DNA of 64,000 nt. Origin: Methylophilus sp. (lineage in GTDB: Bacteria > Pseudomonadota > Gammaproteobacteria > Burkholderiales > Methylophilaceae). The position numbers were made by a program, and so were the translations under genes. Below are positions 50,251 to 58,998 of the stretch, one piece after another. The notes below the pieces were generated by a model. That model was not told where the DNA came from and ran no database searches. It saw only the letters and a list, made by a program, of their open reading frames with translations. The DNA is taken from positions 62,001-126,000 of the forward strand of contig JAUYRP010000002.1 of NCBI GenBank assembly GCA_030696695.1. The letters run 5' to 3'. How positions within the stretch are numbered: position 1 is the stretch's first letter; each line of letters opens with the position of its first letter.

Positions 50251-50284
50251 GCCAATATTTGCCTAATAATAAAAATTGATAAAA

Positions 50285-50773
50285 ATGAAAACACGCATCA
50301 TTCCTGCCATCAGTGTCTCGCTGCGACCTTCTTACCTTATATTAGGCAGTTATGTCTGTATTTCAATACTAAGTGTCATTGCATTAATGCTGGCGACCTT
50401 GTCGTGGATGTTGCAGAGCGCCATTATCTTTGTGGTGATTATAGCCACAATCTACACGGTTCTGCAGGATGTATTGTTGCTATTGCCTTGGTCGTGGCAT
50501 CAGATTGAGGTGAGCAGCCATGGTCAGCTTCAATTGACTATGAAAAATGGTGAAACATTTCATGTCGTATTACAACCTTCTAGTATCAACCATCCTTGGC
50601 TGACGATATTACATTTTAAGCGTGTAGTTATAGGGGTTGGTTTTAGAGTCAACGTGGTGCTGACTCCTTGGCAAGTAGCTGATTTACAACAGTATCGAAA
50701 GTTACGTGTATGGTTGAAGTGGGGTAGCCCACTCAAACAACATCACACTTTGGATACTTTGCCAGACGATTGA
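50285..50773 (+). CDS. YgfX-family membrane protein
   Basis: 162 residues with two adjacent N-terminal hydrophobic segments (about 15-38 and 42-63) and a cytoplasmic remainder. Seen: SLRPSYLILGSYV at the start, LPWSWHQIEVSSHGQLQLTM, PSSINHPWLTILHFK and LTPWQVADLQQYRKLRVWLKWG, fitting the YgfX/CptA (DUF1434-type) layout: two helices plus a short beta domain ending in an LRVWLRW-like motif. An in-frame TTG at 50276 is possible, but ATG 50285 is preferred. Divergent from ygfZ. The last 31 bp overlap the convergent mxaL 3' end. Confidence 0.75.
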   Translation: MKTRIIPAISVSLRPSYLILGSYVCISILSVIALMLATLSWMLQSAIIFVVIIATIYTVLQDVLLLLPWSWHQIEVSSHGQLQLTMKNGETFHVVLQPSSINHPWLTILHFKRVVIGVGFRVNVVLTPWQVADLQQYRKLRVWLKWGSPLKQHHTLDTLPDD

Positions 50774-51756
50774 CGTGATAGTCGTTTTGACCAAGTTGTC
50801 CAAACCTGTTTGGCCTCATGGACAGGGTGTTTGGGAATATAGGCCAATAGGAACAGCAAGCCAGCAAGCCCAGCCAATAACCAACGCAATTCAAATTTTG
50901 CTTTGTCACGTCTAGCTGGCGGTTGATTTTTCATCGCCATCAGAACATTTTGCACGCTGTCGCCATTCACATAGTTGCCTGATACTTCTTTTGCAACGGA
51001 TTCTAGATATTTCTCATCTAGCTTAGACAAAAAACGGTCGCTTTCACTGGGGGCCACATTATCGTCACGAATGCCAATATTGGCCTCTGAAATTTGTGCA
51101 ATGCCAGGCTGCATAGCAAAACTCTCGCTGGACCAATAACCAATCACTTGGTTATGTTCATCAAGTTTTGGAATCGCTGTTCCTTTGTCGCTGCCTATGC
51201 CAACAAATAGCCAATCTTTACCACCTTGAAAACTAGTTAAATCTTTAGTGTTAAATGCGTGCAGTTTTGGCGCCTCTTCACCATCGGTCACGTAAACCAC
51301 TTGCGCAGGCTCAGGAAAACTACGAATCACTCGTGCTAGAGTAAATAAGCTCGTTCTAACCTTGCTATTGCCTGACCAGCCCATGCGCCAGTCAAGGTGA
51401 TCTATGCTGTCTTCAATCGCGTGAAAGTTACTGCATACCTCAATCGGGGTATACAACGCAGCCACACTATCGCCAGCAAATAAACCAATACTCACTAAGG
51501 TGCCACATGGCAATTCACCAATCACGCGATGCAACAGATATTGTTGATACTCCATGCGCGTAACAGGTTTGCCCAAAATGGACATGTCTTTGACATTCAT
51601 ACTTTGAGAAATGTCAGCGACCAGTAAGTAACTATAAATATCGCGTTTAATAGGCCATGTAGGTTTCAACATGGCAACAATCAGCAACAATAGTGCAATA
51701 CATAAAAGCACTAAGTCGCGTCGGTGGCGTAAGTAATTTATCAATCTTTTAGACAT
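50743..51756 (-). CDS. mxaL: Methanol dehydrogenase maturation VWA protein MxaL
   Basis: Von Willebrand factor A protein of 337 residues, needed with MxaACK for insertion of Ca2+ into methanol dehydrogenase. Seen: N-terminal helix (about 15-31), a VWA domain with MIDAS D48-x-S-x-S52 (DISQSM), threonine/aspartate loop VVYVTDGEEAP, IGYWSSESFAM, and a C-terminal helix near 292-310. It is the last gene of the mxaRSACKL group, 2 bp after mxaK. A strong paralogue lies at 56331-57314. The stop overlaps the convergent ygfX; mxaD, E, H and B, which follow mxaL in Methylobacterium, are absent. Confidence 0.9.
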   Translation of the reverse strand: MSKRLINYLRHRRDLVLLCIALLLLIVAMLKPTWPIKRDIYSYLLVADISQSMNVKDMSILGKPVTRMEYQQYLLHRVIGELPCGTLVSIGLFAGDSVAALYTPIEVCSNFHAIEDSIDHLDWRMGWSGNSKVRTSLFTLARVIRSFPEPAQVVYVTDGEEAPKLHAFNTKDLTSFQGGKDWLFVGIGSDKGTAIPKLDEHNQVIGYWSSESFAMQPGIAQISEANIGIRDDNVAPSESDRFLSKLDEKYLESVAKEVSGNYVNGDSVQNVLMAMKNQPPARRDKAKFELRWLLAGLAGLLFLLAYIPKHPVHEAKQVWTTWSKRLSRQSSGKVSKV

Positions 51757-51758
51757 GA

Positions 51759-52313
51759 TTATGGTAACCCTACAGGGATATTGCCCATAATAAGCCCTGG
51801 GGTGTCAGACTCTCCAACGCCAGGCGTGGGGGTCCCAGGTAGCATGGTAAGCAAGCGATCCATATTATGGCGCGCATCCCATTGTGTATTGTCTAACTTT
51901 AAAGAAGCTTGGTAAGCCGTTTTAGCCTGTCGGATAAAATATTCTGCTTCATTACGTACAGTCATGTTGGTGCCATTAATTGCAAGGCCACGCAAGAAAA
52001 ACATATTGCCAACGTTATATTGCACCGCGGCTTTTTGTTGTGGATTGGCTTTAGGCAGCAGCTGGGTGAATAGCAAAGTGGCTTCCTTGTAGCGTTCTCG
52101 CTTGGCTAAATAAAGTGCAGTTGCAAATTTCGCTTCAAAACTTTGACGGTCAGTTTCTGGTGTTTTGCCTGCAGACACGGCCTGATTAAAGGCATGAATC
52201 TGCTGAATACGTTGGTAGGTATAAATGCTCGCTGATATGCAAATTATGCAAAGCGCTAAAAATAACCAAGTAAGTTTGGTCACTGTAAACCAAGATTTTA
52301 TGCTGTACGCCAT
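51759..52313 (-). CDS. mxaK: MxaK-like membrane-anchored helical protein
   Basis: 184 residues: one N-terminal membrane helix (about 13-33), then an alpha-helical region with TPR-like spacing (residues 60-155: FATALYLAKRERYKEATLLFTQLLPKAN and YNVGNMFFLRG, QAKTAYQASLKLDNTQWDARHNMDRL), and a Pro/Gly-rich tail. The N-x-x-N and D-x-R-x-N patterns resemble the TPR-bearing components of Bat operons. It overlaps mxaC by 16 bp and precedes mxaL by 2 bp. MxaK is required for calcium-dependent methanol dehydrogenase in methylotrophs. Name based on gene order plus length. Confidence 0.85.
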   Translation of the reverse strand: MAYSIKSWFTVTKLTWLFLALCIICISASIYTYQRIQQIHAFNQAVSAGKTPETDRQSFEAKFATALYLAKRERYKEATLLFTQLLPKANPQQKAAVQYNVGNMFFLRGLAINGTNMTVRNEAEYFIRQAKTAYQASLKLDNTQWDARHNMDRLLTMLPGTPTPGVGESDTPGLIMGNIPVGLP

Positions 52314-53281
52314 GTGTTGACCTCTAAGTATTTCACACCTAACAGCAGCGCAATCATTATCGCTGCAATCATAAAGAAAATATTGGAAAAATCTTTGCCT
52401 GGAATTTTTTCCATGTATTTAATCGGCTTTTTCTCTTTGCGATTAATGTCCTCAATGGCTAATTGCAATGTTCTGGGATTCTCAGCTTCATACGCATTGA
52501 ATGGCGTTTTCAGCGTTTTAAAGAAATCGTATAACTCAATTTCAGGAGGCAATGCTTGATCTTCTTGTGGCTTGTAGTTTTCATCAAAAATACTTAAGCC
52601 ACCAGGTTGACGAAGCACAATCCAGTACAAGCTGATTTCTAAGCGGTCGAACCATTCGCGAATTTTTTCTTGTGTATTGGCATCAATACGACCTGCACCG
52701 TCTGATAGCAGAATCACCGCGCGTGAACCTGAATTGGGTACTTTGTCGAATAGACCAGCGCCAGAGGTTAGCCCACTACCAATATTGGTTTGAAACAGCG
52801 CATTGCCTGCGGTTGCGCGCACCGCTGCAACAATTGCCTCTTTATTTTCTGTGAGTGGTAGCACGTGCATCGCAGAGTTACTAAACGTAATCATGCCTAT
52901 CATGTCGTTTTGACGCGATTTCACAAACTCTGCAATTAAGCGTGCCGCAGCGGCCGATTTTGTCTCACCCACCGTGGTCTCGGTTGTGCCAGAAAAAGGG
53001 TCGTCCATACTCGCGCTTCGGTCTAACACTAAGCCAATTTGAGCGCCCACACCAATACGTTCTACTTCTTGTTGATAGCTATGCGGAGCGCTCAAGCCAA
53101 TGATTGTGCTTGCCAAAATACACACAGCCAACACTTTTAAAATTAAGCCAATGATGTTGGATAATGGGTCGGCAGGCAACATCTCTAACCAAGAGTAGTT
53201 GCGCGTATGTGCACGCTGAAATACCAATGGCAATAAAGCCAATGGGAGTAGCCACAATAAGTAAGGGTGAGAAAATGCCAT
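52298..53281 (-). CDS. mxaC: MxaC, VWA-domain membrane protein
   Basis: 327 residues. Seen: N-terminal membrane helices (about 6-22 and 43-63), a BatA-like VWA domain with MIDAS D87-x-S-x-S91 (LDRSASMDD), GMITFSNSAM, VILLSDGAGRID, and a C-terminal helix (about 302-320). This layout is that of Bat/MoxR-linked VWA proteins exposing the domain to the periplasm. It lies 3 bp downstream of mxaA and overlaps mxaK by 16 bp. In Methylobacterium, MxaC is needed for active methanol dehydrogenase. Confidence 0.9.
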   Translation of the reverse strand: MAFSHPYLLWLLPLALLPLVFQRAHTRNYSWLEMLPADPLSNIIGLILKVLAVCILASTIIGLSAPHSYQQEVERIGVGAQIGLVLDRSASMDDPFSGTTETTVGETKSAAAARLIAEFVKSRQNDMIGMITFSNSAMHVLPLTENKEAIVAAVRATAGNALFQTNIGSGLTSGAGLFDKVPNSGSRAVILLSDGAGRIDANTQEKIREWFDRLEISLYWIVLRQPGGLSIFDENYKPQEDQALPPEIELYDFFKTLKTPFNAYEAENPRTLQLAIEDINRKEKKPIKYMEKIPGKDFSNIFFMIAAIMIALLLGVKYLEVNTWRTA

Positions 53282-53284
53282 GGT

Positions 53285-54298
53285 TTATGCAGCCTTGCTT
53301 GTGGCGATGCTATCCGGAATTAAGCCGCGCTCGCAGTCACGACATTGCTTGCACAACTTACCAAGCCATACCAACTGTTCTGGATCAATTGGCTGAGCCG
53401 TATTGGACTCAAAAAATACTTTGCGAGACAGTGAAAAAAACTGGTTTAGCTCGGCTTGAATGTTTCTGAAAGCAGGTTTTTTGGCTAAAAACGCCTCCAT
53501 GTTATTACTAAACAAGCTGTAACCTGCAGTTGTGTTCAATGCTTCATGCAAGCTACTCACAGCAGATTGAACGCCCTCAGTAGTGTTTGGTGCATGTCGA
53601 ATGGTTTTGTATGCCCTCGCAAACGGACCACCCATACGCGGTAACCAGGCATGTTTTCCCAGCATGTACAAAAGCGCCAATAGCGAGAAACCTAGCACAA
53701 CCAAGAAAACATTCAGCCGCTGTTGGAGAGGTTCTGGATTCAGTAGCAATGGGCCTCTGTAACCACTCATGTCCGCTTCCACTTTTACCTGCCCAAATAC
53801 TGAAATAGGGGAGATAGCAAAATTCCAACTTGGAATGCGGTATCTATAGACGCTTTTGTCTTTGCTAGAGGTGTCTAGCAGGCGTAAATATTCTCCTGGC
53901 AGTGCGGCGGGCTTGGCTACTACGTTATTGGTAAACACTTGGTAGCTCAAAGTGATGCGGTGCGTAGCAGAATCGCTATCTACCTCCTTGCTGTGTTTGA
54001 GATCTGATAAATCGATGCCAATTAATTGACCTTTGTAGCGTCGCTCATACCCTACAATTGGTAGCGATTCTTCCACCAATACATAGGGTTTTTTGATAGT
54101 GAGCGTAATTTCTCTAGTCAATACATCACCCACCGTGTAACCAACATCACGCGTAGGTTCTTTAACTTCCATTCTGACAATGCCTTTTTTGACGTCTGGC
54201 AGAAAGTCAGTTTCTAATGCATGGGCATGCATCACTATCATTATGCTGATGAGAGAGGCATTCATGAGTAAGCGCAGTGGATGTACAATTTTTTTCAT
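53285..54298 (-). CDS. mxaA: MxaA, methanol dehydrogenase maturation protein
   Basis: About 337 residues. Seen: signal peptide or N-terminal helix ending in HAHA, an extracytoplasmic beta-rich domain (about 25-205), one membrane helix (about 215-232, LNVFLVVLGFSLLALLYMLG), and a cytoplasmic helical tail ending with CKQCRDCERG. Its three cysteines with a C-x2-C-x2-C spacing suggest metal or redox chemistry; this is inference. A longer frame starts at 54328, overlapping mxaS. ATG 54298 gives a normal signal peptide and was chosen. Required for calcium-containing methanol dehydrogenase in methylotrophs. Confidence 0.87.
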   Translation of the reverse strand: MKKIVHPLRLLMNASLISIMIVMHAHALETDFLPDVKKGIVRMEVKEPTRDVGYTVGDVLTREITLTIKKPYVLVEESLPIVGYERRYKGQLIGIDLSDLKHSKEVDSDSATHRITLSYQVFTNNVVAKPAALPGEYLRLLDTSSKDKSVYRYRIPSWNFAISPISVFGQVKVEADMSGYRGPLLLNPEPLQQRLNVFLVVLGFSLLALLYMLGKHAWLPRMGGPFARAYKTIRHAPNTTEGVQSAVSSLHEALNTTAGYSLFSNNMEAFLAKKPAFRNIQAELNQFFSLSRKVFFESNTAQPIDPEQLVWLGKLCKQCRDCERGLIPDSIATSKAA

Positions 54299-54314: not shown

Positions 54315-55181
54315 TTAGGCAGCAACAAATTGATGAAAGTATTCGGTCAGTGCGTCTGCATCAAACTCACCTTCCACAAAAAATGGGGGCATATCAAACT
54401 GCATAAAGAGCTGATGTATCGCTTCGCGTCTTGCCTCAAACGCAGCAATAATGCGCTCGCGATACTCTTTGCGTAAAAACAGTGTGCGTTTCATGCCGGT
54501 TTCAGGGTCAGTCACCGCAGTAATGCCAAATTCTGGGAGTTTGGTGTATTCGTCTGCATCCCACAGCACTACTGGCACAATATGATGCTTAAGTAAGTTA
54601 GCCAATGATTCCTCTAATTGTTTAAGCGGCATATGAAAATCTGACACCATGAACACCAAAGAGCGTTCACGTGGTAAGTAACGCCAAACATCCGCTATCC
54701 CATCACCAGATACCATTTCAGGGTGATGCTCTTTTAACCGCTCCATCAACTCGATAGCGCGTTGCGATTTAAATGACGCAGTGCTAATCCAATCTTCACG
54801 GACGATGGCATCAAAGCCAACAAAACCAAATGGGTCGGCATTTCTGCTGGCTGATTGGGCAATGGATTCAATAATGTCTGCTGCACGCCTTATTTTGCGA
54901 GACTTAGCGCCAAAATTCATGCTACCCGACATGTCGCAAATCGCAAATACAGGCGTCGCACTTTTTTGATTAAACAAGCGCACATACACTTGTTCCATTG
55001 GGTCACGTATGGTTTGGCGTAAATCAATACGGCGTGGGTCTGGATAAGCGACTAAAGTAGTATGGCCAATGAACTCCATGCCCATGCCGCGCTGTGTGCT
55101 GGCATGCCGGCCTGGATGACGTCCGCGGTTGCGCCAGCCGATGTGGTAGGAGAACTCTTTAATCTCGTTATACATAGTCAT
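54315..55181 (-). CDS. mxaS: MxaS, DUF58/VWA protein
   Basis: 288 residues, soluble, no export signal. Seen: an N-terminal basic Arg/His/Gly-rich stretch (GWRNRGRHPGRHASTQRG), then a DUF58-type VWA domain with MIDAS D83-x-S-x-S87 (CDMSGSM), MVSDFHMPL and a C-terminal helical segment. It corresponds to the BatB-like/DUF58 partner of MoxR ATPases. It starts 9 bp after mxaR and ends 16 bp before the chosen mxaA start. The name is based on order and domain type. Confidence 0.9.
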   Translation of the reverse strand: MTMYNEIKEFSYHIGWRNRGRHPGRHASTQRGMGMEFIGHTTLVAYPDPRRIDLRQTIRDPMEQVYVRLFNQKSATPVFAICDMSGSMNFGAKSRKIRRAADIIESIAQSASRNADPFGFVGFDAIVREDWISTASFKSQRAIELMERLKEHHPEMVSGDGIADVWRYLPRERSLVFMVSDFHMPLKQLEESLANLLKHHIVPVVLWDADEYTKLPEFGITAVTDPETGMKRTLFLRKEYRERIIAAFEARREAIHQLFMQFDMPPFFVEGEFDADALTEYFHQFVAA

Positions 55182-56246: not shown

Positions 56247-56320
56247 ATTTGTAAATGATTTGTAAGTAATTTGTAAATAATATAAACGAATTTTTTAAAA
56301 GTGTATACAGGTTTGTATAC
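56247..56320 (-). promoter_or_regulatory. mxaR leader: candidate promoter, three phased ATTTGTAA repeats, two GTATAC hexamers
   Basis: Within the 123 bp between mxaL2 and mxaR, ATTTGTAA occurs at 56247-56254, 56258-56265 and 56269-56276, exactly 11 bp apart. Two GTATAC hexamers stand at 56303-56308 and 56315-56320. On the minus strand, TATACA (complement of 56302-56307) and TATATT (complement of 56279-56284) with 17 bp between could form a promoter. The first hexamer then overlaps the -35, and the repeats lie around and just after the start of transcription. A repressor or activator site is plausible. Confidence 0.5.
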
Positions 56321-56330
56321 TTTTGACGGT

Positions 56331-57314
56331 TTATTTTATCTCCGTTTTTCGTTTATTTGTGCTGCCGCTGCCAATGCTTAGTTTGACCCATATATCAGGC
56401 ACATATACCGCAATCATGAGCATGAACGAGATTAGAGCACACAGTCGGTTTAAAGCAAACTGGGTTTTGATGTGCACAGAAGGTGCGTGTTGATTAAGTG
56501 CATGTATGAGTGCCTCAGCTGTAGTAGCTTTGAGATATTGTGCCCCAATTTGCGTGGATAATTCCTGTAGGTATGATGCATCTAGTTGAGACAGATAATA
56601 CTCATAAGGCTCAGTCGCTATTGAATTGTCACGGCCACCATTGTGACCTTGATCTACATTTGATGCGGGATTGAGTTTAATAGCATCTGTAGACCAGTAC
56701 CCAATAATATTATCTTGTGTGTCTAGCTTGGGTATAGGCACTGGCTTATTACCTCCAACACCCATAATCGTCCATGCACGGCTGTCCTGCCACTTGCTTA
56801 AGTTGGTATGCGTAAATACGTTTAATGGCGGGGCTTCATTACCATCCGTAATAAACACCACTTGAGCGATATCTTCAATACTGGAATTAAGTAACGCTGC
56901 GGTTGAGAGTAGCCCTAAGCGAATGTTGCTATTCCCTTGCGAAGCCATGCGCCAATCCACATGGTTTAACGTACTCTCTAATACATGGTAATGCGCACAT
57001 GTCTCAATCGGGGTGTAGAGTAAAGCAGCTGTAGTTTTAAAAAATACCCCCAAACCAACTTGAGTGCCACAAGGCAGTTGTTTGATGGTCTCTTTGAGTA
57101 ATTGCTTAGTGAAGTTGAGTCTGCTGATAGGGTTTTGTTTCCATGCCATATCTTGCACATTCATGCTTTGAGTCACATCGATAATGAACAGTATATTTTT
57201 CTGTGGATAGACTGACGTAATAGTTGGCTGGTAAATAGCCAACAATAAAAAAAGCAGCGCTCCGCATAAACAACCCATATCGTAGTGTTTGCGGATGCGC
57301 CCTAAACGTTGCAT
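56331..57314 (-). CDS. MxaL-like VWA protein (paralogue, upstream of mxaR)
   Basis: 327 residues, same layout as MxaL: N-terminal helix (about 13-29), VWA domain, C-terminal helix near 293-309. It shares with MxaL such blocks as LLYTPIETC, DWRM with GNS, AQVVFITDGNEAP, IPKLD and IGYWS, so the two genes are clearly paralogues. The MIDAS reads D46-V-T-Q-S50: Thr replaces the first Ser, a conservative change that may still bind metal. It sits 123 bp upstream of mxaR on the same strand, in the place where mxaI or mxaG would be expected. The four-helix protein gene lies 34 bp upstream. Function unknown. Confidence 0.85.
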   Translation of the reverse strand: MQRLGRIRKHYDMGCLCGALLFLLLAIYQPTITSVYPQKNILFIIDVTQSMNVQDMAWKQNPISRLNFTKQLLKETIKQLPCGTQVGLGVFFKTTAALLYTPIETCAHYHVLESTLNHVDWRMASQGNSNIRLGLLSTAALLNSSIEDIAQVVFITDGNEAPPLNVFTHTNLSKWQDSRAWTIMGVGGNKPVPIPKLDTQDNIIGYWSTDAIKLNPASNVDQGHNGGRDNSIATEPYEYYLSQLDASYLQELSTQIGAQYLKATTAEALIHALNQHAPSVHIKTQFALNRLCALISFMLMIAVYVPDIWVKLSIGSGSTNKRKTEIK

Positions 57315-57348: not shown

Positions 57349-57792
57349 TTAATATGTATGCGGTTGCAAGGTAGATTTAAAGATAATGACGGCACCTTTG
57401 CCAAAGCCATAGCTCGTGGTAATCAGGCTGGCAAATAAATACCATTGAAACAACATTGGCGGCGGCAGTTCAGGATTATCTAAGGCAGGGAAAATTGCCA
57501 TCAGCAAGAATAAACTAGAATTTGTAAACGCACCCACCACCATGGCCAAGCTGACATGCCAAGGCAAAGTGACTTTGGTTGCGTAATACCCAAAAATGAG
57601 TGCGCTCATCAGCAAAAAATCAATGTGTGCTTGTAGCAGGCGTGTGAACTTCCCAGCAAAAATTGATTTTAGAAGTCCCACTTCAAAATTGAGCCCTATC
57701 ATGCACCATGCTAGTAACAACGCCATTAACATCCATAGTGCTGCGCCGCGAATTAATACAATATTGCCTGCATGTTGATCTGCTGATTGCAT
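57349..57792 (-). CDS. Small four-helix membrane protein of unknown function
   Basis: 147 residues with four predicted membrane helices (about 12-32, 54-74, 78-102 and 110-135). A histidine in LLQAHIDFLLMSALIFG at the start of helix 2 recalls the RAHSG haem-binding site of styrene-oxide isomerase (StyC), a four-helix protein of similar size. Helix 3 has GAFTNSSLF near the place of its GWANVG. The match is loose, and the StyC aspartate in helix 3 is missing, so I do not assign that activity. It is divergent from an AraC-family regulator and only 34 bp upstream of the MxaL paralogue, so likely in one operon with it. Confidence 0.7.
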   Translation of the reverse strand: MQSADQHAGNIVLIRGAALWMLMALLLAWCMIGLNFEVGLLKSIFAGKFTRLLQAHIDFLLMSALIFGYYATKVTLPWHVSLAMVVGAFTNSSLFLLMAIFPALDNPELPPPMLFQWYLFASLITTSYGFGKGAVIIFKSTLQPHTY

Positions 57793-57849
57793 GAGATTTC
57801 CTTTGAATGAATATGCAAGCAGTGTATGAAGTTAGGTATGAATAGGCTG

Positions 57850-57878
57850 TGTTTAAACAGCGTTGAGACTTGACTCAA
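57850..57878. promoter_or_regulatory. Two dyads in the divergent AraC/membrane-protein promoter region
   Basis: In the 168-bp space between the divergent genes stand a 10-bp palindrome TGTTTAAACA (57850-57859) and TTGAG-ACTTGA-CTCAA (57863-57878), four bases apart. Candidate operator of the AraC-family regulator, at a position to control both directions. Confidence 0.4.
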
Positions 57879-57960
57879 ACGGTGGTGGGATGATTTACAT
57901 TACATGGGGTAGCTTTTAATATGTACTTATCGCTCATTTCATTATGGGAAACCCAAGGTT

Positions 57961-58998
57961 ATGCGACACGCATCGTTCATCGATTTAAGCAATCCGCAAT
58001 TGCCTCAAACGGCCCTCCAACAAAGGGATGCACTACAAAAAGGATTAACACTTTCCACCGCAGATGTGTTGCCGCATGAACGACGAGAGTGGTTGGAAGA
58101 CATGATTTGTCAGGAATTCACTCGTGTGGCAGTTATACCGCCTACGGATAAGCAGTTATTTAATGAAACCACTTTGTATGACTGGGACAAACTGCGTTTA
58201 TCAGTTATTCATTCTCGCGGCTTAACCATTGAGCGATTACGCCGTGAGCCGTATCACAACAATCAAGATAATTATTTAGCGGTGATATTGCTTTCAGGAC
58301 GTTATTCACTTGAACAGAATGGGCGTGAGGTATTTTTGCAACCTGGAGATATGACCATTTACGATGCGACTAGACCGCATCGTATCCAATCATCAATCGG
58401 TTTTTCTAAAATTCTGGTCTCGATTCCACGCGTAATGATGCGAGATAGACTCGCAGGCATAGAACATTGCACCGCATTGTCGGTGCCTGGCAAAATAGGT
58501 GTTGGCGCGATGGCTTCGCAGTTTATGCAAACGGCTGCAATCCAAGCCAAGTATTTGCGTTCTGAGGAATTGACCAAATTGTCCGCACAGTCATTAGATT
58601 TGCTAACCTTGGCATTTCAATCAGTACGTCCGCAGCACGTTTATCTCTCCCGAAGCCGCTCACTTTCGCTAAGGCAAATTAAAGATTATGTTGCACAGAG
58701 ACTAAAAGATACGCAACTAGACACCGCCATGATTGCAGAAGGCACACGTTTATCTCCACGTTATATCAATGATTTATTTAGTGACGAAGACACTTCTCTG
58801 ATGCGCTACGTATGGAGGAGTCGATTAGAAAAATGTCGTAAAGAAATACTCGAATACCCATGTGAGCCTGTTTCAGTGATTGCATTTAAGTGGGGATTTA
58901 ACGATATGTCGCACTTTAGTCGTGCCTTTAAAAAACGATTCGGCATCGGGCCAACTGAACTAAAGCGATATGTAAACGAGACGATAGAACCCACTTGA
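57961..58998 (+). CDS. AraC-family transcriptional regulator (FeaR-like)
   Basis: 345 residues. Seen: an N-terminal AraC_binding_2-type cupin domain (YLAVILLSGRYSLEQNGREV, LQPGDMTIYDATRPHRI, typical of FeaR/NahR-type activators of aromatic amine or styrene-like pathways), and a C-terminal double helix-turn-helix (DTAMIAEGTRLSPRYINDLF and PVSVIAFKWGFNDMSHFSRAFKKRFGIGPTEL). ATG 57961 has AAGG just upstream. It is divergent from the four-helix protein gene, which together with mxaL2 and mxaRSACKL lies on the other strand. It is the natural candidate regulator of that unit; target and inducer are unproven. A small dyad (58999-59018) follows its stop. Confidence 0.88.
   Translation: MRHASFIDLSNPQLPQTALQQRDALQKGLTLSTADVLPHERREWLEDMICQEFTRVAVIPPTDKQLFNETTLYDWDKLRLSVIHSRGLTIERLRREPYHNNQDNYLAVILLSGRYSLEQNGREVFLQPGDMTIYDATRPHRIQSSIGFSKILVSIPRVMMRDRLAGIEHCTALSVPGKIGVGAMASQFMQTAAIQAKYLRSEELTKLSAQSLDLLTLAFQSVRPQHVYLSRSRSLSLRQIKDYVAQRLKDTQLDTAMIAEGTRLSPRYINDLFSDEDTSLMRYVWRSRLEKCRKEILEYPCEPVSVIAFKWGFNDMSHFSRAFKKRFGIGPTELKRYVNETIEPT

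Follow-up and report, generated by a model that had tools for sequence, protein, structure and literature searches.

Why should an operon that ends in an mxaL-like gene of its own also have a second gene of that family at its upstream end, and what might the second protein do? The question arises in the window analyzed here, a stretch of Methylophilus sp. DNA of 64,000 nucleotides, where a gene referred to below as L_extra lies directly upstream of moxR, the first gene of an RSACKL cluster. The preliminary description of this locus had proposed a second MxaL-type gene upstream of mxaR at this position, which was borne out: the exact reading frame lies on the minus strand, starts with ATG at 57314, runs to 56331 with no internal stops, and encodes a protein matched above the cut-off by Pfam VWA_2 (PF13519; E 4e-8). 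To judge from its sequence, L_extra is a real, intact, and old paralogue within the MxaL family. The genes concerned are as follows.

56331–57314, minus strand: L_extra, an MxaL/BatB-type VWA protein of 327 aa with an N-terminal transmembrane segment, a VWA domain with MIDAS, and a C-terminal transmembrane segment
55191–56207, minus strand: core-type moxR/mxaR ATPase (domain search and homology)
54315–55181, minus strand: mxaS-like DUF58 protein (domain search)
53285–54298, minus strand: mxaA-like protein (listed ORF start 54328, TTG; the ATG at 54298 is preferred)
52298–53281, minus strand: mxaC-like (BatA-type) VWA protein (domain search)
51759–52313, minus strand: mxaK-like protein (named from its place in the operon and a weak resemblance to K of other clusters)
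50743–51756, minus strand: core-type mxaL, the operon's own L (homology and tree)

The Operon Downstream of L_extra

Downstream of L_extra the gene order is moxR, DUF58/S, A, C, K, and L, the last gene ending at 50743. Four MxaL-family matches were found in the genome, namely L_extra, the operon's L, and one in each of two clusters on contig C32, which by homology are mxaFJGIRSACKL-D (L005) and xoxFJG followed by several other genes and then RSACKL (L006). The mxaF gene and four xoxF-like genes of this genome are all located on C32 (dehydrogenase search, E ≤ 1e-40), and no methanol dehydrogenase gene is present among the ORFs listed for 43–64 kb of the window. The idea that the window operon is the canonical mxa operon was therefore rejected, the mxaFJGI-linked set being on C32. 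Because a close relative of its moxR (at least 77% identity) was found in each of the 14 family genomes examined, one of which is the window's, the operon can be identified from sequence as the core accessory RSACKL cluster of the family, the third set in this genome. Genomes of Methylophilaceae have been described to carry two to four copies of mxaRSACKL, one directly downstream of mxaFJGI and the others elsewhere (PMC4109929, 2014); the part of that paper considered here describes multiple sets, as found in this genome, but mentions neither an extra upstream L nor the P147 and AraC cassette described below. No paper on the L_extra cassette was found in the open full-text literature. An ORF at 50276–50773, convergent with the core L, keeps its position in the family loci read and evolves fast (25–58% identity among relatives).

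Sequence and Predicted Topology of L_extra

L_extra and the operon's L (50743–51756, minus strand) share 35% identity (E 5e-68), a sequence likeness far above chance, and the extended motifs earlier reported as common to both were all recovered (LLYTPIE/ALYTPIE, DWRM, IPKLD, and IGYWS). The MIDAS of L_extra comprises D46-V-T48-Q-S50 plus S129 and D157. In an alignment of 90 L-protein rows, D46, S50, D157, Cys 82, and Cys 106 are kept throughout and positions 48 and 129 are always S or T; MIDAS and the Cys pair are intact in all ten L_extra rows. The preliminary description correctly noted the D-x-T-x-S form of this site. That form is not special to L_extra, and we rejected it as a mark of its divergence, since the middle position is T in all 12 L proteins of mxa clusters; T is likewise found in all ten L_extra rows, in 11 of 41 core L, and in 2 of 24 group-2 or other L, and three xox-cluster L have S.

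The predicted structure of L_extra (mean pLDDT 71) contains helices at residues 2–28 and 289–317. Basic tails mark the cytoplasmic side of a membrane protein (the positive-inside rule), which is used here for topology. Net positive N-tails occur in 85 and net positive C-tails in 89 of the 90 rows, and because of these basic tails at both ends and the invariant Cys pair, the VWA domain is predicted to be periplasmic. MoxR ATPases are cytoplasmic, so the earlier idea that MxaR could have a second client appears unlikely to apply by direct contact. A heteromeric complex of VWA proteins that includes L_extra may be possible.

The remaining L_extra rows are 40–61% identical to the window copy, and dS is saturated between L_extra and orthologues other than one close pair. 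In that single pair, on which the dN/dS values rest and which holds very few changes, L_extra evolves faster than its neighbors (0.37, against 0.17 for P147, 0.007 for R, and 0.00 for L).

Phylogeny of L Proteins

A phylogeny of MxaL proteins, proposed earlier as a means to date the duplication, was built from 90 rows and placed L_extra in an old clade of its own (10 rows, support 99/95) rather than as a recent duplicate. The core L proteins, the window's L among them, form a different clade (41 rows, 90/82), as do the group-2 L (22 rows, 100/100), and the mxa- and xox-linked L also fall outside the L_extra clade. L_extra lies on the core and group-2 side of the tree, away from the mxa- and xox-linked L, as far as midpoint rooting shows, and its grouping with group 2 is weakly supported (83/46); the tree program flags long rows, the L_extra of genome G061 (L012) among them. 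Approximately unbiased (AU) tests rejected a pairing of L_extra and L from the window (p 1.1e-8), and a tree with all core L as the sister group of L_extra was compatible with the data (p 0.23). Tree and AU test together rule out L_extra as a recent duplicate of the operon's L. The view that one duplicated copy flanks each end of the operon thus holds insofar as a family member stands at both ends, but not in the sense of a simple duplication of the operon's L. Given its own clade and the rejected pairing, the duplication that gave rise to L_extra is most likely older than the dispersal of core L over the sampled genera. Genes of the MxaL family stand last in RSACKL, behind K; L_extra departs from this placement, a positional rather than a sequence feature, as it lies upstream of R or has no RSACKL nearby.

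Additional L genes also occur elsewhere. Core-type clusters end at their 3′ side in tandem L–L pairs in five genomes (G005, G011, G039, G093, and G075; loci L048, L049, L019, L174, and L175), and by sequence these copies are of an origin independent of L_extra. A group-2 L follows P147 in three further loci, before moxR in L095 and L170 and at a contig end in L097; these L genes fall within another clade of the tree and are of separate origin.

L_extra Belongs to a Cassette With P147 and an AraC-Type Regulator

Two further genes and the region between them adjoin L_extra.

57349–57792, minus strand: P147, a predicted four-helix membrane protein of 147 aa, 34 bp upstream of L_extra
57793–57960: divergent AraC–P147 intergenic region of 168 bp, presumed from its position to be the control region of the cassette
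57961–58998, plus strand: AraC-type regulator (AraC_binding_2 and HTH_18), divergent from P147

The order in the window is fabA, AraC–P147–L_extra, and moxR. P147 precedes L_extra in all ten rows, and a divergent AraC gene is present in each (as two ORFs in L040). Intact L_extra was found in at least 9 of 150 family genomes, a lower bound because weaker matches were only partly entered in the tree. Five loci, the window's and L037, L038, L040, and L041, have the cassette ahead of the core cluster, and the contig of L039 ends after L_extra; in three genomes (L045, L046, and L047) the trio has no RSACKL around it within the 17–20 kb read. A stand-alone trio is found at L091 of Methylotenera mobilis 13. 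From these data, the natural unit of L_extra seems to be the AraC–P147–L_extra cassette and not the operon. A short contig titled Legionella (L098) carries an AraC–P147–L_extra cassette nested among Methylophilaceae rows and is probably mis-binned.

The distance from fabA to R is approximately 2.9–3.1 kb in the five cassette loci versus 172–907 bp in 22 loci lacking an intact cassette (L216–L235, L043, and L215), which were chosen for having no L_extra-level match at the junction and so give no frequency. One of these junctions, in genome G077 (L223), contains a decayed L_extra from which P147 and AraC are gone, and no L_extra remnant was found in the other 21 fabA–moxR spacers searched. A decayed L_extra also follows P147 at a different locus in G069. 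Decay, raised earlier as a possibility for the window's gene, thus occurs in G069 and G077, and the window's copy has no internal stop and an intact MIDAS. A single insertion with frequent losses and repeated insertions are both compatible with this pattern. The GC content of the cassette (43–44%) is like that of the operon (44–47%), so base composition does not point to recent import, and the idea that the cassette is foreign in base composition was rejected.

The least probable account of L_extra, that it is a dispensable relic being lost with little present function, could draw on the two decayed copies, the patchy occurrence, and the elevated dN/dS of one pair, but it is very unlikely given that all ten rows keep ORF, MIDAS, and Cys pair intact at 40–61% identity to the window copy.

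P147 Occurs Mostly in Methylotrophs

P147 has no Pfam family, and its best NCBIfam match is no better than E 0.004. Its model consists of four long helices (pLDDT 88). Profile searches against solved structures returned no meaningful match, and nothing at E ≤ 0.001 was present among the best 50 of 367 Foldseek matches; the best-looking bundle match, LTC4 synthase (TM 0.60, E 0.16), is not significant. A styrene-oxide-isomerase-like four-helix enzyme, considered as a candidate identity for P147, found no sequence or fold support in these profile searches or among these best 50 of 367 matches.

Within the family, P147 occurs in 27 of 150 genomes (at least 68% identity over nearly the full length). 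For a wider scan of 84,980 species with one genome each, the pattern was taken from a P147 alignment, because a contig scan with the single sequence P0001 had confirmed no relative; the misassigned row L127 was left out, and L169, with a bad second half, and short rows were kept. Eighty loci were obtained among 98 pattern matches. Sixty-eight of these 80 listed loci carry names of methylotrophs or methanotrophs, and 12 do not, including Rudaea, Labrys, and Filomicrobium. An AraC-family gene lies within 6 kb of P147 in 67 of 75 clustered loci (75 of the 80 listed loci were used). By this survey, the AraC–P147 pair is mostly found in methylotrophs and recurs in alpha-, beta-, and gammaproteobacterial ones. 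In 12 genomes chosen for carrying P147, with no P147-free set for comparison, a XoxF-like dehydrogenase was found in all 12 and MoxR at 50% identity or more in 10.

Neighbors were counted in 79 named loci, many from closely related genomes, L168 being left out for want of a P147 ORF. P147 is directly followed by an RSACKL-family gene in 16 of them (L-type in 11, BatA/C-type in four, and moxR in one) and by none in 63, some of which end near P147, suggesting that P147 usually does without a linked VWA protein. The BatA/C-type VWA genes lie directly behind P147 in Methylophaga and a related gammaproteobacterium (L123, L129, L152, and L165). Eight Methylophaga contigs (L113, L115, L118, L119, L121, L125, L137, and L153) stop approximately 1.2–1.5 kb upstream of P147, just past AraC, which suggests a repeat upstream of AraC. 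The genes adjoining AraC–P147 in three loci of the Methylophilus group (L075, L078, and L080) have sequence starts that we take to be those of a periplasmic molybdenum aldehyde oxidoreductase.

Probable Separate Control of the Cassette and moxR

One further feature lies between L_extra and moxR.

56303–56320: palindrome GTATACAGGTTTGTATAC, conserved ahead of moxR whether or not a relative has the cassette

This 18-bp palindrome is located 94 bp upstream of the window's moxR. With up to two mismatches, it precedes moxR in 25 of 26 loci including the window, versus none of 1300 mononucleotide shuffles, the pattern having been drawn from part of the same loci that were counted; L226 lacks it and L041 is unreadable there. 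Because the conserved palindrome stands between L_extra and moxR, moxR is very likely under its own control, apart from the cassette. L_extra is probably its own AraC-controlled unit, and the 34-bp gap between P147 and L_extra suggests a single transcript under AraC. No terminator between L_extra and moxR was supported (fold z −0.32), and scans between the units gave four promoters versus 5.9 expected and one terminator-like site versus 1.8 expected.

The palindrome pattern TATACWNNNCTGTATAYA has six distinct sites in the genome at up to one mismatch, versus none for the reversed-pattern control. Two of them lie upstream of MxaD-like genes, and the others precede the core moxR, a TetR gene, xoxJ, and a PQQ dehydrogenase (L237, L238, L240, L241, and L245, together with 56303–56320); the set likely represents a TetR regulon for methanol oxidation. 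In the window's genome, a TetR gene and a 251-aa ORF adjoin at L237. Beside group-2 RSACKL clusters or P147 in L071, L074, L095, L097, L170, and L214 there are ORFs of 184–188 aa and of approximately 240–290 aa, the former assigned to TetR by Pfam in L071, by eye in L074, and by size in the other four.

Comparison With Known MoxR/VWA Systems

MxaL of mxaFJGIRSACKLD and L_extra have in common the VWA domain, the MIDAS, two membrane anchors, the invariant Cys pair, and the motifs DWRM and IPKLD. MxaL sits after mxaK, whereas L_extra stands upstream of moxR behind P147 and AraC and belongs to a separate clade. The best fold matches of L_extra are 4jdu and 3ibs, BatB-type crystal structures of the Bat aerotolerance systems (E 3e-10 to 2e-9), but at only 16–18% identity; a profile of L proteins also matches 4rck, 4jdu, and 3ibs. 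The NCBIfam BatB model, a narrow one for Leptospira, scores L_extra at 20.2 bits versus a cut-off of 350. Bat operons have a MoxR/VWA gene setting similar to that of L_extra.

In the parts of the NorD literature considered here, the MIDAS of NorD is thought to dock the client for metal insertion, and NorD binds the NorQ ring, a MoxR ATPase, directly via a finger (PMC9976466; PMC13036017). The MIDAS would be the likely client-binding site, and the MoxR contact would lie elsewhere (PMC9976466). NorD thus contacts NorQ directly, whereas L_extra is a membrane protein with two anchors and a predicted periplasmic VWA domain. The separation of MIDAS and MoxR contact in NorD fits a docking role of L_extra without direct MoxR contact.

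Proposed Role of L_extra

L_extra is most likely an alternative L subunit or a partner of P147. More specifically, we propose with about even confidence that it is an AraC-induced alternative or additional L subunit that works with P147, the core RSACKL machinery, or both. AraC would drive P147 and L_extra as one transcript apart from moxR. Once induced, L_extra would be anchored by its two membrane helices, with the VWA/MIDAS domain facing the periplasm, and would act as an alternative or additional L subunit. Its MIDAS metal might dock either P147 itself or a client handled jointly with it onto the machinery of core RSACKL, which would help to mature PQQ methanol dehydrogenases.

An unlikely alternative, though one to be taken seriously, is that L_extra simply serves core RSACKL as a second L subunit for methanol dehydrogenase maturation, either alongside the operon's L or replacing it, and that P147 and AraC are mere neighbors. 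It shares family and MIDAS with the operon's L, immediately precedes moxR in the window, as it does in the four relatives read as far as the operon, and has counterparts in the independent extra L copies of other RSACKL operons, either as 3′ tandem L–L or as P147–L–RSACKL. This alternative is at odds with the trios that have no adjoining RSACKL, with the presence of P147 ahead of L_extra in every row, and with the conserved palindrome that makes moxR seem a separate unit. Improbable, in turn, is a role for P147 alone, for instance as an assembly or stability factor, with no part in MoxR/RSACKL function: L_extra always adjoins P147, and at several loci, but most named P147 loci have no linked L, and with a core moxR in all 14 family genomes examined such independence cannot show.

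Implications

We know of no established account of how MxaRSACKL acts on methanol dehydrogenase or of how VWA proteins and clients are paired. A VWA paralogue that moves with a conserved membrane protein of methylotrophs would reduce the question to a short list of partners. A more far-reaching possibility, which we regard as rather doubtful, is that AraC–P147–L_extra is a methylotroph-specific inducible membrane module in which the MoxR/VWA maturation machinery has P147 as a new type of client or partner. If so, VWA genes would have been recruited beside P147 several times independently, as L_extra and group-2 L in Methylophilaceae and as BatA/C-type genes in Methylophaga and a related gammaproteobacterium. 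The independent addition of L genes to several operons shows that the parts of RSACKL are modular, and the AraC–P147 pair, whose membrane protein belongs to no Pfam family, offers a fresh target in methylotrophs.
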